Assembly: GCF_001007875.1 (NCBI RefSeq)
Contig: NZ_CP011412.1
Location: forward strand, 1,736,001-1,800,000
Source: Sedimenticola thiotaurini
Lineage (GTDB): Bacteria; Pseudomonadota; Gammaproteobacteria; Chromatiales; Chromatiaceae
DNA: 64,000 bases
Reading direction: 5' to 3'
Shown here: piece after piece, positions 51,417 to 59,092 of the stretch
Numbering within the stretch: the stretch's first letter is position 1
How the letters are laid out: the number at the start of each line of letters is the position of its first letter
Position numbers and translations under genes: made by a program
The notes under the pieces: model-generated
What the model saw: only the letters and a program-made list of their open reading frames with translations
What the model was told of the DNA's origin: nothing
The model's database searches: none

Positions 51417-54101
51417 TCAGAGCTGGCGGGCGATTTCAGTGCGTTCGAACACTTCGATCTGGTCACCCGGCTTGACATCATTGTAGTTCTTCACGCCGAT
51501 ACCGCATTCGGTGCCTGCCTTCACTTCCATCACATCATCCTTGAGACGGCGCAATGATTCGAGCACCCCTTCATAGATCACCACGTTGTCACGCAGCACA
51601 CGGATCGGGTTGTTGCGCTTGACCATGCCCTCGACAACCATACAGCCGGCAATGGCCCCGAGCTTGGAGGAGCGGAACACATCCCGCACCTCGGCGAGAC
51701 CGATAATCTCTTCCCGCACTTCGGGAGAGAGCAGACCGGAGAGCGCCTTTTTCACATCATCAATCACCTCGTAGATGATGCTGTAGTAGCGGATATCCAG
51801 GCCACGATCCTCTGCGGCGCGGCGGGCGGCCGCATCGGCACGCACATTGAAACCGATCACGAAGGCATCCGAAGTGGCGGCCAGGTTGATATCGGTCTCG
51901 TTGATACCGCCCACCGCGGAGGCGACCACCTTGACCTTTACTTCATCGGTGGAGAGTTTCAGCAGGGATTCCCGCAGCGCTTCCACACTACCCTGTACAT
52001 CCGCCTTGATAATCAGGTTGATAACGCCCACGTCACCTTCGGTCATCTTGGAGAAGAACTCGTCCAGCTTGGCCGCTTTCTGAGCCGCCAGCCGGTTGTC
52101 ACGATTGGTCTCCTGACGAACCGATGCCAGTTCACGGGCTTTACGCTCGTCGGCTACCGCAATCACCTCGTCACCGGCATTGGGCACGCCGGAGAGTCCC
52201 AGCACCTCAACCGGGATCGAAGGACCGGCCGAGTCAATCGGCTGACGGTTCTCATCCAACAGCGCCCGCACACGGCCGAACTCCTGGCCGCACACCAGCA
52301 TGTCACCCTTCTTGAGATTACCGGACTGCACCAGGATAGTAGCCACCGGACCGCGTCCTTTGTCCAGACTGGACTCGACCACGATTCCCCGGGCCGGACC
52401 CTCTTTCACGGCGGTCAGTTCCAGCACTTCCGCCTGCAGCAGAATGGCATCCAGCAGGGCGTCAATACCGGCACCGGTTTTGGCAGAGACCTCGATGAAC
52501 TGAGTATCACCACCCCAGTCCTCCGGTATCACCTCGTGTTGGCTTAACTCCTGCTTGACCCGATCCGGGTTGGCTTCCGGCTTATCCATCTTGTTGACGG
52601 CGATGATCAGCGGCACACCGGCGGCCTTGGAGTGCTGAATCGCCTCAATGGTCTGGGGTTTGACGCCATCATCGGCCGCCACCACCAGCACCACGATATC
52701 CGTTACCTGGGCACCGCGGGCACGCATGGCGGAGAATGCAGCATGCCCCGGGGTATCGAGAAACGAAACCATGCCGTGATCCGTCTCCACGTGGTAGGCA
52801 CCGATGTGCTGGGTAATACCACCCGCCTCGCCCGCCGCCACGCGGGTGCTACGGATGTAGTCCAGCAACGAGGTTTTACCATGATCGACGTGGCCCATGA
52901 TGGTCACAACCGGGGCGCGATGTACCAGTTCGCCCTGAACCTCATCCAGCGAGCTCATCACCTGGGCTTCGATGCTGTCATCCTGCTTGGTGACCGGCAC
53001 ATGCCCCAGCTCTTCTACCACCAGGGTTGCCGTGTCGTGATCCAGGGGCTGGTTGATAGTAACCATCATACCCATCTTCATCAGCTCCTTGATCACGGCC
53101 GCTGCCTTGATGGACATCTGTGAGGCCAATTCAGCAGCGGTAATGGTATCCGGCACCACCACTTCACGAACCACCGGGGCTGTCGGTTTGACAAACCCGT
53201 GCTGTGAATCGCCCTGAGAGGCTCCGGTTTTGCCGCGCCCAGCCTTGCCTTTCCGACGGCCCCGCTTATCCGCAGAGACATGGAGCTTTTTACGGCTGTC
53301 GCCATCATCGCTGGCTTTACGACCGCGCCCGGCGCTGGCACGGGTCTCTTTTTTCTGGCTGGCCCGCTTGGCGGGCCGCTCTTCAGCGACAGCAGCTACT
53401 GCCGGTGCAGCTTCAGTCTCCACCACAGCAGGCGCTTCTTCTTTCGGTGTGGATTTGACCGCAGTCGGAGATTCTTCAGATTCCGGTTTTTTCAGCCCCT
53501 GTTCCTGCTGTTGACGGGCTTCCTGCTCAGCCCGGCGCTGTTTCTCTTCTTCTTCCCGCAGCCGCGCCTCTTCAGCCAGCCGCTTGTTCTCTTCTTCTCT
53601 GACCTTTTCCAGTTCCGCCAGTCTCATCGCCTCTTCGGCTTCACGGCGAGCCTGATCCTCAGCAGCGATCTGTTCGCGCTTCCGGGCCTGCTCCTCGAGC
53701 GCCTTACGGGCCTCCTCGGCGTCCTGCAGTGTCTTCTCGTTCTCGCTGGCTGAACCCCGTTTGACGTAGGTGCGCTTGCGACGCACTTCGACGCTCACGG
53801 TCTTGCCGGCACCCCGTACCGCACCCCGGCCACCCGGACCGCGTCCACCGGCCGCCGGTTGTTGCAATTCACTGACCGTTTTACGCTTCAGGGTGATTTT
53901 CCGGGGACCACCGGAGGCAGATTCACCATCTTTCTTGCCGTGACTTTCCCGCAAATACCCTAACAGCTGCGCTTTTTCTGACACGCTGATCGGGTCATCA
54001 GCGCTGTTCTTGTTTACTCCAGCTTCTTTCAGCTGGGTTAGCAGGCGCTCTTCTGCAATTCCAACATCTTTTGCGAGCTGCCTTACCGTTACATCACTCA
54101 T
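51417..54101 (-). CDS. infB: Translation initiation factor IF-2
   Basis: GTPase that places initiator fMet-tRNA on the 30S subunit. 894 residues: an N-terminal IF2_N domain ([18 protein letters not shown]), a long Lys/Glu/Ala-rich linker (residues 110-300), then the G domain with [20 protein letters not shown] and NKMDK near residues 400-510, followed by domains II-IV ending [10 protein letters not shown]. Length matches E. coli IF2-alpha (890). Confidence 0.98.
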
Positions 54102-54122: not shown

Positions 54123-55625
54123 TTAGCTCTGCTGCTCGTCCGCGAACCAGGGAGCCCGTGCAGTCATAATCAACTGCGCCGCCTTCTCCTCGTTCATACC
54201 ATCAATTTCCATCAACTCATCAACCGATTGTTCTGCCAGGTCTTCCATGGTGATGATTCCCCGGCTGGCCATTTCATAGGCCAGGTCCGAATCCATCCCA
54301 TCCATACTGAGCAGATCTTCCGCCGGGCCTTCGCCCATCGCCTCTTCTTTGGCGATCGCCTGGGTTAACAGGATCTCTTTCGCTCGACCGCGCAGCGCTT
54401 CGACAATCTCGTTATCGAACTCCTCGATCTCCAGCATTTCGCTGATCGGTACATAGGCCACTTCGTCGAGGGTGGTGAATCCTTCCTGTACCAGGATCAT
54501 TGCCACCTCTTCATCAACGTCGAGCTGCTTCATGAAGTTGTCCACAAACTCACGCACCTCGGCCTCGCTCTGGGCCTCGGCATCGGACTCGTTCATGACG
54601 TTCAGTTCCCAACCGGTCAGTTCACTGGCCAGCCGTACATTCTGGCCGCCGCGTCCAATCGCCTGAGAGAGATTATCCTCACTGACCGCGACAGTCATGC
54701 TGTGGGAATCCTCGTCCACCACGATCGACGCGACATCAGCCGGCGACATGGCGTTAATCACGAACTGGGCCGGATTGTCATTCCACAGGATGATATCCAC
54801 CCGTTCGCCATTCAGCTCATTGGATATCGCCTGTACCCGGGAACCCCGCATACCGACACAGGCACCCACCGGATCAATCCGCTGATCGTTGGTCTTGACG
54901 GCAATTTTAGCGCGCAAACCCGGATCACGGGCAGCACCCTTGATCTCGATCAGACCTTCACCAACCTCCGGCACCTCCAGCTTAAACAGCTCGATCAGCA
55001 GTTCCGGGCAGCTGCGGCTGACAAACAGCTGAGGCCCACGCTGTTCTGAGCGCACGTCATAGAGATAGCCCCTGACCCGATCACCAGTGCGAACCGGCTC
55101 ACGGGGTATCATCTGGTCACGCAGGACGATCGCTTCCGCATTGCCACCCAGATCCAGGGTGACGTTGCCCCGGTCGACCCGCTTGACGATGCCGGTCACC
55201 AGCTCTCCGATACGCTCCTGGTAAGCCTCTACCACTTTCGCCCGTTCCGCCTCGCGTACTTTCTGTACAATCACCTGCTTGGCGGTCTGCGCTGCGATAC
55301 GGCCAAATGCGATCGACTCCATCGGTTCCTCGATGAACTCGCCGACCTGAATGTCCGGATGGGTTTTGCGCGCCTCTTCCAGAAGAATCTCTTTCTCCGG
55401 GTTCAGCTCTTCTCCCTCTTCCACTGCATCGATAACTTCCCAACGGCGGAAGCTGGAGTAGTCACCGGTGACCCGATCCACTTCAACGCGCACACCGATG
55501 TCGCCCCCGTGTTTTTTTCGGGTAGCAGAAGCGAGCGCATACTCGATCGCCTCAAAAATGATCTGTTTCTCAATGTCCTTTTCGTTGGACACCACATCAA
55601 CGACCAGCAGAATCTCTTTATTCAT
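54123..55625 (-). CDS. nusA: Transcription termination/antitermination factor NusA
   Basis: RNA-polymerase-binding elongation factor, 500 residues from ATG 55625 ([16 protein letters not shown]). N-terminal polymerase-binding domain, S1 domain ([17 protein letters not shown]), two KH domains ([35 protein letters not shown]) and two C-terminal acidic helix-hairpin-helix repeats, as in E. coli. The upstream frame to 55643 adds seven residues absent from the family. 22 bases before infB. Confidence 0.97.
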
Positions 55626-55639
55626 CTGTCTCAACCCAA

Positions 55640-56098
55640 TCAAAATTCAGGCACTAATCGCGCTCTATCAATCAAATCCAGTGGCAGGGCGGTCACTTCA
55701 CCGTCCATGGCCACCAGGACCTCACCATCCTGCACGCCCTTTAAAACGCCTTCGAAACGGCGTCTGTCATGCAATTTCGTTCGCAACCGGACGTTGATCT
55801 TCTGGCCGGCAAATCGCACGAAATCCTTTTCAAAAAACAGGGGCCTGTCCAGACCCGGCGACGACACTTCCAAACTGTAGTTTTCCTTGATCGGATCTTC
55901 TACGTCCAGTACACCGCTAACCTGATGGCTGACCGTGGCGCAATCATCCACACTGATCCCGTTTTCGTGATCTATATAGATGCGCAGCAGCGACCCGCCC
56001 TTTCCCTGGCTCAGGTACTCCACGCCCACCAGCTCGTACCCCAGAGGCTCTACCGCCCCCCGGACAATTTCAATCAAGCTTTCAGATGCGCCCGCCAT
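55640..56098 (-). CDS. rimP: Ribosome maturation factor RimP
   Basis: 30S assembly factor, 152 residues from ATG 56098 ([14 protein letters not shown]). The core [24 protein letters not shown] and the [20 protein letters not shown] segment are the RimP signatures. ATGs at 56104 and 56110 are also possible and no strong Shine-Dalgarno decides. It is the first gene of the operon and is preceded by an unusual structured leader. Confidence 0.95.
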
Positions 56099-56263
56099 GT
56101 TCATCAACAAAAATCAGAAATAAAAAAAGGGCCATTGGCCCAAGTACACAGGTAGCCGACCTTTTGGCCGGCGATACCAATAAAAAAACCCCAAACGGGG
56201 CCCTTCTAAAAAGCAGTGAATTTAAATACTACCACTGCAAGCCACCACCGTGGCTACCGAATC
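56099..56263 (-). promoter_or_regulatory. rimP leader with three hairpin/U-tract structures
   Basis: From the predicted start near 56263 the transcript passes GCAGTG-14-CACTGC-TTTTT (56208-56238), CCCC-GTTT-GGGG-TTTTTTT (56182-56200, extendable by GU/AU pairs) and GGGCC-ATT-GGCCC-TTTTTTT (56122-56141). Between the last two, GGTA-x2-GCCGGCC-AAAA-GGTCGGC-TACC (56149-56179) forms another stem. The final terminator lies only 24 bases before the rimP ATG, so the operon must be read through it. A rimP leader with a terminator is described in Enterobacterales; this may be a relative. Confidence 0.6.
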
Positions 56264-56269
56264 CGGCCC

Positions 56270-56298
56270 ATTATACCTGTGAGTAACTCTCCATGCAA
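56270..56298 (-). promoter_or_regulatory. Strong promoter of the rimP-nusA-infB operon
   Basis: On the minus strand TTGCAT (56293-56298) and a perfect TATAAT (56270-56275) are 17 bases apart, just after the end of the acr3 gene. Confidence 0.7.
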
Positions 56299-56373: not shown

Positions 56374-57414
56374 TCAGGCAAAGTGTGAGCGGGTCCGATT
56401 GGCCAGCGCCACTAATGAAAGCATCACCGGCACCTCCACCAGCACACCCACAACAGTCGCCAGCGCAGCGCCGGAATGCAGGCCAAACAGACTGATCGCC
56501 ACCGCAACGGCCAGCTCGAAGAAATTGGAGGTTCCGATCAGGGCAGCCGGCGCTGCAATACGGAAAGGGACTCGCCACAGATAACCCCACCCATAAGCTA
56601 TCATAAACACGCCGTAGCTCTGAATCAGCAATGGCACCGCAATAAGCAGTATAATCAATGGCTTATCCAGGATTGTCTGGGCCTGAAAGCCAAACAACAA
56701 CACAACCGTCGCCAATAGCCCGATCACGGAGAAAGGCTTTATCCTGCCGGTAAATGCCGCTATGCGCTCCTCGTTGCCGCCGCCATCCAGGGACTTGCGG
56801 GTCACATACCCGGCCACAAGGGGTATCACCACATAGAGCACAACTGACAGCAGCAGGGTCTCCCAGGGCACGATAATATCCGTTACCCCAAGCAACAGCG
56901 CGGCTATTGGCGCGAAAGCAAAGACCATTATGAGATCGTTGAGGGATACCTGCACCAGGGTGTAGTTGGCATCACCACGTACCAGTTGACTCCACACAAA
57001 AACCATTGCTGTACAGGGCGCAACGCCGAGCAGAATCATTCCGGCGATATACTCTTTCGCCACTTGCGGTTCAACAAGCCCGGCAAAGAGATGTTCAAAA
57101 AACAGAATACCCAGAGCCGCCATAGTGAAAGGCTTGATCAACCAGTTCACCACCAGCGTTATGCACAACCCTTTGGGCTTTTTCCCCACATCCTTGATAG
57201 AAGAAAAATCCACGTTGACCATCATCGGGTAGATCATCACCCAGATGAACAGCGCCACCACCAGGTTAACGCTGGCATATTCAATGGACGCCAACAGTTG
57301 AAACATGCCCGGAAACAGAGCACCCAAGATAACACCCGCGACGATACAGAGGGCGACCCAAAGCGATAGTAAGCGTTCAAAAATTCCCATGGGTGACGAG
57401 GATTCAGTACTCAT
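56374..57414 (-). CDS. acr3: Arsenite efflux transporter ACR3
   Basis: Inner-membrane arsenite exporter of the ACR3 (BART) family, 346 residues and about ten helices. Signature segments: [20 protein letters not shown], the Cys-containing [15 protein letters not shown] with the essential pore Cys, and [18 protein letters not shown]. It is not the ArsB/NhaD type. It is the last of arsR-arsI-acr3 and lies directly upstream of the rimP promoter. Confidence 0.95.
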
Positions 57415-57499
57415 TGCAACTTTTCTCTACCAATTTATTCCTATTACCGGAGCAGCTTGAAAAACTGCCCGTACCCGAAGCAGGCGCAGCTTTCCAGAA

Positions 57500-57973
57500 T
57501 TACCCGCCGCAACAACTGCTTGCACTATCCGAAGGAGCACAACAATTTGCTTGGGCGTTCACATCCGGGACGCAGCAAACCGCTTCACCGCTGGCTTGCG
57601 CGTCTGAAAAGTAACGCGTGTCCTCCATGGTCTGGTACGCCTCCCAGGCGATTCCGGCTGGATCGGTCACCCAGGATTTATCGGAACGGGCATAACAGCA
57701 GACCACTTCGCCTTCATCGAAAAGTGACATATCTGCACTTTTCATGCGTTCGCGTAACTCACCCAGTTCATTCTGCTCTTCAACCTGCACACCCAGATGA
57801 TCGAGCCCCGGTTTGACCCGGGTAGAGATGGCAAAATTAATGGACGGATCATCCAGTAACCATTTTGCGTAGTCACTCTCTATTTTTACTGGTTCCGTAC
57901 CAAACAGCGTGTTGTAGAACCGGATACCTTCGTCGAGATTATCGACTCCAAGATGTATATGCATACGTTTCAT
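57500..57973 (-). CDS. arsI: ArsI/CadI-family C-As lyase (glyoxalase fold)
   Basis: Type I extradiol/glyoxalase-fold protein, 157 residues. The metal set His5 (or His7), His59 and Glu111 and the vicinal pair Cys92-Cys93 match the known ArsI C-As lyase, which demethylates trivalent organoarsenicals such as MMA(III) to arsenite. The C-terminal 30 residues carry three CC pairs (CCVP, CCAP, CCGG) and may bind metal. CadI (cadmium-induced protein) is the same family. Its place between arsR and acr3 supports an arsenic role: cleavage followed by efflux of the arsenite. Confidence 0.85.
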   Translation of the reverse strand: MKRMHIHLGVDNLDEGIRFYNTLFGTEPVKIESDYAKWLLDDPSINFAISTRVKPGLDHLGVQVEEQNELGELRERMKSADMSLFDEGEVVCCYARSDKSWVTDPAGIAWEAYQTMEDTRYFSDAQASGEAVCCVPDVNAQANCCAPSDSASSCCGG

Positions 57974-57993
57974 AATTGAACTCTTCAGTTTGC

Positions 57994-58353
57994 TTATGGC
58001 TCACAACAGAAGTCAGCCAACTCAATGACGGAACAGCCTTTGCGCTTATCCTGGCGGATACTGGCAAAGTCACCACTGCAACAATCCTTGATCAGGAAAC
58101 CAATCAGGTCACGCATCGCATCGTAATTGGCAAAATAGATCACGGAACGCCCTTCCTTCCGGGAAGAGATAAGTCCGGCGTTGGACAGGTGTTTCAGGTG
58201 GAATGACATGGTGTTATGGGGTGTACCCAACTGCTCACTAACCGCTCCAGCCGGCATCCCCTCCACCCCGGCACGAACCAGCAGGCGAAATGCCCGCAGC
58301 CGGGTCTCCTGGGAGAGTGCGTCGAACATGGTAATAGCATTTTGTATGTCCAT
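57994..58353 (-). CDS. arsR: ArsR-family arsenite-responsive repressor
   Basis: Winged-helix repressor of 119 residues from ATG 58353. Helix-turn-helix: LGTPHNTMSFHLKHLSNAGL. The metal-sensing cysteines lie at the C-terminus, CC at 91-92, Cys107 and CC at 116-117, like the Acidithiobacillus type rather than the helix 3 ELCVCDL type of E. coli. It controls its own operon through the inverted repeat over the start. The longer frame to 58458 lacks family homology in its extra N-terminus. Confidence 0.92.
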   Translation of the reverse strand: MDIQNAITMFDALSQETRLRAFRLLVRAGVEGMPAGAVSEQLGTPHNTMSFHLKHLSNAGLISSRKEGRSVIYFANYDAMRDLIGFLIKDCCSGDFASIRQDKRKGCSVIELADFCCEP

Positions 58354-58388
58354 ATGTCCAGAATATTCGACATATAAAAACCTGTCAA
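58352..58388 (-). promoter_or_regulatory. ars operon promoter with ArsR operator
   Basis: On the minus strand TTGACA (58383-58388, perfect) and TATTCT (58360-58365) are 17 bases apart. A 7-bp inverted repeat ATATGTC-10-GACATAT (58352-58375) covers the -10 and part of the spacer, as expected for an ArsR operator. The predicted start falls at or within a base or two of the arsR ATG. Confidence 0.7.
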
Positions 58389-58507
58389 TGGCTGTAGAAA
58401 TATTTTCTTCAGGGGCGCAGGCCACCGGGAAGGTGGTTACCATGCTACGGATAAGCATACGGCTGGCGCGAGAGAGCTACTCTAAGCTTCGAGAAAAGTT
58501 GCACTAA

Positions 58508-58899
58508 GGCGCCTGTCGAACCTGACTGTTTGGATGTCGTAGGTTCGAATGCTCTTCTTGCAAAAAATGAAAAAGGGCCGCACTTTAGCGACCCTTTTCC
58601 TGGTTTGGTAGCGGGGGCAGGATGAGCTCGCTGCGCTCGTACTGCGCGCCTGGCGGCGCTTGTCGAACCTGACTGTTTGGATGTCGTAGGTTCGAATGCT
58701 CTTCTTTCAAAAAATGAAAAAGGGCCGCACTTTAGCGACCCTTTTCCTGGTTTGGTAGCGGGGGCAGGATGAGCTCGCTGCGCTCGTACTGCGCGCCTGG
58801 CGGCGCTTGTCGAACCTGACTGTTTGGATGTCGTAGGTTCGAATGCTCTTCTTTCAAAAAATGAAAAAGGGCCGCACTTTGGCGACCCTTTTCCTGGTT

Positions 58900-58917
<18 letters not shown>
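58508..58917. repeat. Tandem 147-bp repeats derived from tRNA-fMet 3' end
   Basis: Two full 147-bp units (58508 and 58655) and a third partial unit (58802) that runs into the real tRNA. Units are almost identical; I see about three base differences. Each carries, on the minus strand, the last 18 bases of tRNA-fMet (ATCCTGCCCCCGCTACCA) followed by its terminator; on the plus strand each also has GTCGTAGGTTCGAAT, an inverted copy of the T-arm. The frame 58445-59032 across this region is an artefact of the repeats. Confidence 0.85.
58864..58893 (-). terminator. Intrinsic terminator of tRNA-fMet (three copies)
   Basis: On the minus strand AAGGGTCGC pairs with GCGGCCCTT (one GU) around a 6-base loop, followed by TTTTT. 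Copies with one base change occur at 58717-58746 and 58570-58599 in the tandem repeats. Confidence 0.8.
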
Positions 58918-58976
<59 letters not shown>

Positions 58977-58988
58977 TCTGGAGGGCAG

Positions 58989-59017
58989 ATAATACGCACA
59001 TAAAAACGCTTTGGCAA
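58989..59017 (-). promoter_or_regulatory. Promoter of tRNA-fMet
   Basis: On the minus strand TTGCCA (59012-59017) and TATTAT (58989-58994), five of six matches each, are 17 bases apart. The predicted start is about 6 bases before the mature 5' end. Confidence 0.65.
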
Positions 59018-59092
59018 CCCCTGTTCAGACATTTAACAGGAATAATCAATAACCACGACAATTCACAGATTACGCTCCTGTTTTGTATATCG

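Follow-up and report, generated by a model that had tools for sequence, protein, structure and literature searches.

The rimP-nusA-infB operon encodes a ribosome maturation factor, a core transcription factor and initiation factor 2. Its control by NusA is still poorly worked out beyond E. coli and Bacillus. Within the 64-kb stretch of Sedimenticola thiotaurini DNA analysed here (referred to as the window), a first-pass annotation had proposed that the operon is preceded by a leader with serial terminators. We asked what kind of leader this is, and by which means it might control the genes downstream.

Layout and conservation of the rimP leader

The leader spans 56298 to 56098 on the minus strand, and all elements described by the annotation were indeed present there, in the order –10 element, stem A, stem B with its U5 run, T1, stem C, T2 and rimP (Table 1). 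This region is a rimP-nusA-infB leader of the gammaproteobacterial tandem-terminator form, which is a known type (described in 2010 by Naville and Gautheret; PMC2965389) with modest variation. Its hairpin form and conservation point to a real but ordinary attenuator, and not to a new system.

Table 1. Features of the rimP leader and the operon that follows it (positions in the window).
Feature	Position	Strand	Sequence or composition	Basis
–35 element	56293..56298	-	TTGCAT	sequence; TTGCAT-17-TATAAT kept in L002–L006
–10 element	56270..56275	-	TATAAT	sequence
Stem A	56240..56255	-	AGCCAC-GGUG-GUGGCU, without U-run	fold
Stem B	56208..56238	-	GCAGUGG..UUCACUGC, then U5 (hairpin 56238-56213, U5 to 56208)	fold, alignment
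T1	56182..56206	-	core CCCCGUUUGGGG (CCCC..GGGG) at 56200-56189, then U7	fold, hairpin-plus-U detector
Stem C	56151..56178	-	GGUA..GCCGGCC-AAAA-GGUCGGC-UACC, without U-run	fold
T2	56122..56141	-	GGGCCAAUGGCCC-UUUUUUU (hairpin 56141-56129, then U7)	general rimP-leader motif
rimP	55640..56098	-		ORF; Pfam RimP_N and RimP C-terminal SH3
nusA	54123..55625	-		ORF; Pfam NusA
infB	51417..54101	-		ORF; Pfam IF2

The 162-nt leader folded with a minimum free energy of –62.0 kcal/mol, as compared to –43.6 ± 3.9 kcal/mol for dinucleotide shuffles (z = –4.7). The three hairpin-plus-U terminators of the annotation were all found (stem B, T1 and T2), but only T1 and T2 proved to be conserved as terminators. 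Both are nearly invariant across the window and its three closest relatives (L002, L003 and L006), and covariation in their stems was uninformative, since these are invariant in the four closest sequences save for one G-U/A-U pair at the base of the T1 stem. T1 moreover has an A/G-rich 5′ flank able to pair with its U-run, and is separated from T2 by a spacer of 47 nt. Even with up to 3 mismatches allowed, the window contains a single copy of the T2 sequence plus U-run (0.01 expected), and the whole genome has one match to GGGCCNNNGGCCCT6. As previously annotated, the last U of T2 lies 24 bases from the rimP ATG. No clear Shine-Dalgarno sequence was found between T2 and this ATG, and a second in-frame ATG is present at 56104. 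Among named organisms, the RimP proteins closest to that of the window come from Sedimenticola species, at 95% and 92% identity.

Stems A, B and C are likewise all retained in the three closest relatives, with one compensatory change in stem A (A-U to G-C) and a variable pair in stem B (alignment pair 36/56, found as G-C, G-U and A-U) among the 4 sequences aligned. Stem B was considered as a third conserved terminator and rejected, because the position of its U5 run reads GCGTTAAG (GTTAAG in the DNA) in these three relatives while the stem itself is kept. A terminator at stem B, should it function, would thus be confined to the window. In two further Sedimenticola records (L004 and L005) the 5′ half of the leader differs and the arrangement of T1 and T2 is the same.

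The transcriptional start is predicted at approximately 56263-56262. The promoter had been annotated as a consensus one, which holds for the –10 element but not for the –35 element, as the latter matches TTGACA at only 3 of 6 positions (with a 17-nt spacer to the –10). An automated promoter scan gave no call for this site; its elements and spacing are conserved among the Sedimenticola relatives. No promoter was found in the T1–T2 interval of the window leader.

Relation to known rimP leaders

The general rimP-leader motif was defined as a GGGc..gCCC terminator with a U-run located 4–130 nt before the gene, to which several gammaproteobacteria add an inverse CCCg..cGGG terminator upstream, together with a potential antiterminator that competes with the terminator (PMC2965389). 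In the window, T2 (GGGc..gCCC with U7, in the 5′UTR of rimP-nusA-infB) corresponds to the general motif and T1 (CCCg..cGGG with U7) to the inverse one, whereas the leader differs from the published tandem form in having no competitive antiterminator, in its extra stems A, B and C and in its 47-nt T1–T2 spacing. The view that the known rimP leader has one terminator, and that terminators in series would be a variant, has to be given up: the tandem was already described in gammaproteobacteria in 2010, the Rfam family RF01770 models two hairpins with U-runs, and a 2019 paper on E. coli places t1 and t2 upstream of rimP (PMC6511841). Nor is this family one of Enterobacterales, as had been stated, since its title says Gammaproteobacteria. 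Like the window, E. coli carries two terminators before rimP and a promoter-like site upstream of T1, but there metY immediately precedes the leader, which also forms a stable antiterminator helix, while in the window the tRNA-fMet is 2.6 kb away.

The comparison with RF01770 that had been proposed yielded an end-to-end alignment, with both model hairpins and their U-runs in register with T1 and T2, but also a 19-nt insertion between the hairpins and a score of 23.8 bits, below the gathering cut-off of 47. The positive controls scored 102 (E. coli), 91.2 (Vibrio) and 83.5 bits (Phaseolibacter), and the model failed on Pseudomonas, Motiliproteus and Sedimenticola leaders. At its cut-off it was found to miss tandem-hairpin rimP leaders outside Enterobacterales and Vibrionales, with L112 at 46.4 bits, L016 at 30.6 bits and no match at E ≤ 1 for L003, L005 and L021. 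A search of the class retrieved 0 of 274 genomes at cut-off, and because the model is this narrow it was dropped as a means of class census. The low score of the window is a property of the narrow model, although formally it leaves the leader outside the family; that the RF01770 cut-off misses most such leaders is new here.

In the distant phylum of Bacillus subtilis, NusA-dependent termination in the ylxS(rimP)-nusA leader was reportedly observed by Mondal et al. in 2016. The likeness of the two leaders lies in an attenuator before the same operon and in the same idea of NusA feedback.

Distribution of the tandem and position of the promoter

A single hairpin-plus-U detector was run on the regions upstream of rimP in 49 genomes from the family of the window and in 89 spread over the class, with 20 dinucleotide shuffles per region as a control. 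It detected the order T1–T2 in 40/49 family genomes and in 42/89 class genomes, the latter being no unbiased class-wide rate as this sample leans to genomes with a RimP most like that of the window. None of the 2,760 shuffles yielded the two in that order. At least one of T1 and T2 was detected in 81/89 class genomes, and about half lacked one of the two by the detector used. In a first set of 115 rimP loci, T1 and T2 occurred together in 90. The tandem rimP leader is thus far commoner than the Rfam model implies.

Among the genomes with the tandem, the tRNA-fMet was regarded as adjacent when lying within 400 nt of rimP. In 21 of the 28 genomes with an adjacent tRNA-fMet, T1 starts 9–24 nt after the tRNA. 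Of the 28, 10 have a promoter-like site between T1 and T2 (against 1.7 expected from shuffles) and 2 have one upstream of T1. In the 44 tandem genomes without an adjacent tRNA-fMet, T1 is still present; here, 18 genomes have the promoter-like site upstream of T1 (5.2 expected) and 4 have it between T1 and T2 (2.1 expected). Fisher tests gave 0.012 and 0.0024. These values serve as indications only, given the relatedness of the genomes and the scant space for a promoter upstream of T1 wherever the tRNA sits close to it. Nevertheless, there is a tendency for the rimP promoter to be predicted in the T1–T2 interval when tRNA-fMet is adjacent and upstream of T1 otherwise; this tendency is new here, as is the usual start of T1 shortly after an adjacent tRNA-fMet. 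The window is of the type without an adjacent tRNA-fMet and with the promoter upstream of T1; the 3′ end of its tRNA-fMet is at 58900, approximately 2.6 kb upstream, confirming that this tRNA is separate from the operon.

Readings of the tandem terminators

Whether an antiterminator could compete with T2 was examined by folding with the T2 pairs under soft penalties, alongside shuffled controls. The published form of antiterminator was not found in the window, where the best alternative to the T2 fold was 5.4 kcal/mol less stable, and 94 of 100 shuffles preferred an alternative more than the real leader did. In five Sedimenticola relatives the alternative was likewise 3.8–6.2 kcal/mol worse than the T2 fold, and the best alternative of the window (AAGGGCC with GGCCCUU) requires a G that is absent from L002, L003 and L006. 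These values argue against an attenuation by RNA switch as proposed for some gammaproteobacteria, in which an antiterminator captures the 5′ arm of T2. Such a switch does fit other leaders, as the antiterminator was favoured by 1.8 kcal/mol in the E. coli control, and the alternative fold was near even or favoured in several Vibrio and Grimontia leaders (L044 +4.9, L065 +2.8 kcal/mol), but for the window we regard it as very improbable. Given the lack of an E. coli-type antiterminator, any switching in the window leader probably needs a protein, for which NusA would be the most likely candidate.

The best explanation, and in our estimation a rather likely one, is that premature stops at T1 and T2 limit the expression of rimP-nusA-infB, probably in response to NusA feedback. 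RNA polymerase would start near 56263 and transcribe stems A and B, after which a stop at T1 would leave an RNA of approximately 82 nt and a stop at T2 one of approximately 142 nt, and rimP, nusA and infB would be reached only by polymerases passing both. Premature termination is suggested here by the form of the elements and their conservation. As NusA promotes termination at such hairpins, abundant NusA would be expected to lower its own operon, and since the window has no competitive antiterminator fold, control would probably operate via protein-dependent termination efficiency rather than via an RNA switch. NusA feedback is a reasonable hypothesis already published for this leader family: NusA was put forward as the best candidate regulator in the 2010 study, which also cites work from 1985 in which NusA represses the operon (PMC2965389). 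Regulation in E. coli is less straightforward, however, because rimP fusions there fell rather than rose in a rho mutant (PMC7815308). Tandem leaders do exist without an antiterminator, and control by protein alone (NusA) would be easier to study in them.

T1 and T2 might instead be constitutive partial terminators, which set a fixed operon level or insulate rimP from tRNA-fMet or ars read-through without being regulated. The missing antiterminator fold would suit this reading, as would the closeness of T1 to an adjacent tRNA-fMet, which is that of an ordinary tRNA terminator. On the other hand, T1 persists in the tandem leaders that have no such tRNA next to them, and the rimP terminator stem has a special conserved sequence, absent from other terminators, that exceeds the needs of plain termination (PMC2965389), leaving unregulated termination possible but considerably less probable. 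The terminated leader (stems A and B with T1, approximately 82 nt) could also be a stable trans-acting small RNA, in line with its stable three-hairpin fold, with the compensatory changes that keep stems A and B in close relatives, and with a 2017 study that lists the rimP leader among the ProQ-associated sRNAs, as one of attenuator origin (PMC5391140). Yet these two stems are recognisable in the closest relatives only, the 5′ half being different in L004 and L005, and no targets are known, which makes a small RNA an improbable product.

Returning to premature termination with NusA as input, T1 might have a dual use, which we put forward as no better than a speculative extension. Where tRNA-fMet adjoins rimP, T1 would end the tRNA transcript and rimP would be started between T1 and T2; elsewhere, T1 might have been taken over under an upstream promoter as a first attenuator, one lacking an antiterminator, with NusA acting at two serial checkpoints, and in the window strain perhaps at a third (stem B with its U5).

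The region between tRNA-fMet and the leader

Between tRNA-fMet and the leader, the minus strand carries ArsR-like (HTH_20), glyoxalase-like (ArsI-like by sequence) and ACR3-like (SBF family) genes at 56374-58458. In the genus relatives L003 and L005, the tRNA-fMet lies approximately 0.9–1 kb upstream together with tandem repeats and no arsenic genes lie between, and since the ars-type cluster is missing at that place in these two, it was probably inserted in the lineage of the window.

Downstream of tRNA-fMet on the minus strand (58520-58976), tandem copies with a period of 147 nt were observed, each unit combining the 3′-terminal ~20 nt of the tRNA with a terminator and with a spacer that contains an inverted piece of the T-arm. 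Similar copies follow tRNA-fMet in L003 and L005, and we take these repeats to resemble the tyrT/rtT repeats of E. coli. A 195-aa ORF over the tRNA and the repeats (58445-59032, minus strand; with ..VVGSNPAPATKPGKGS.. repeated) appears to be no genuine gene but a frame that happens to stay open through the tRNA 3′ repeats. Elsewhere in the genome (G000:C1:3524194-3524379), the repeat downstream of tRNA-fMet has two 44-bp matches (84%), 142 bp apart, which possibly belong to a repeat of this type next to another tRNA.
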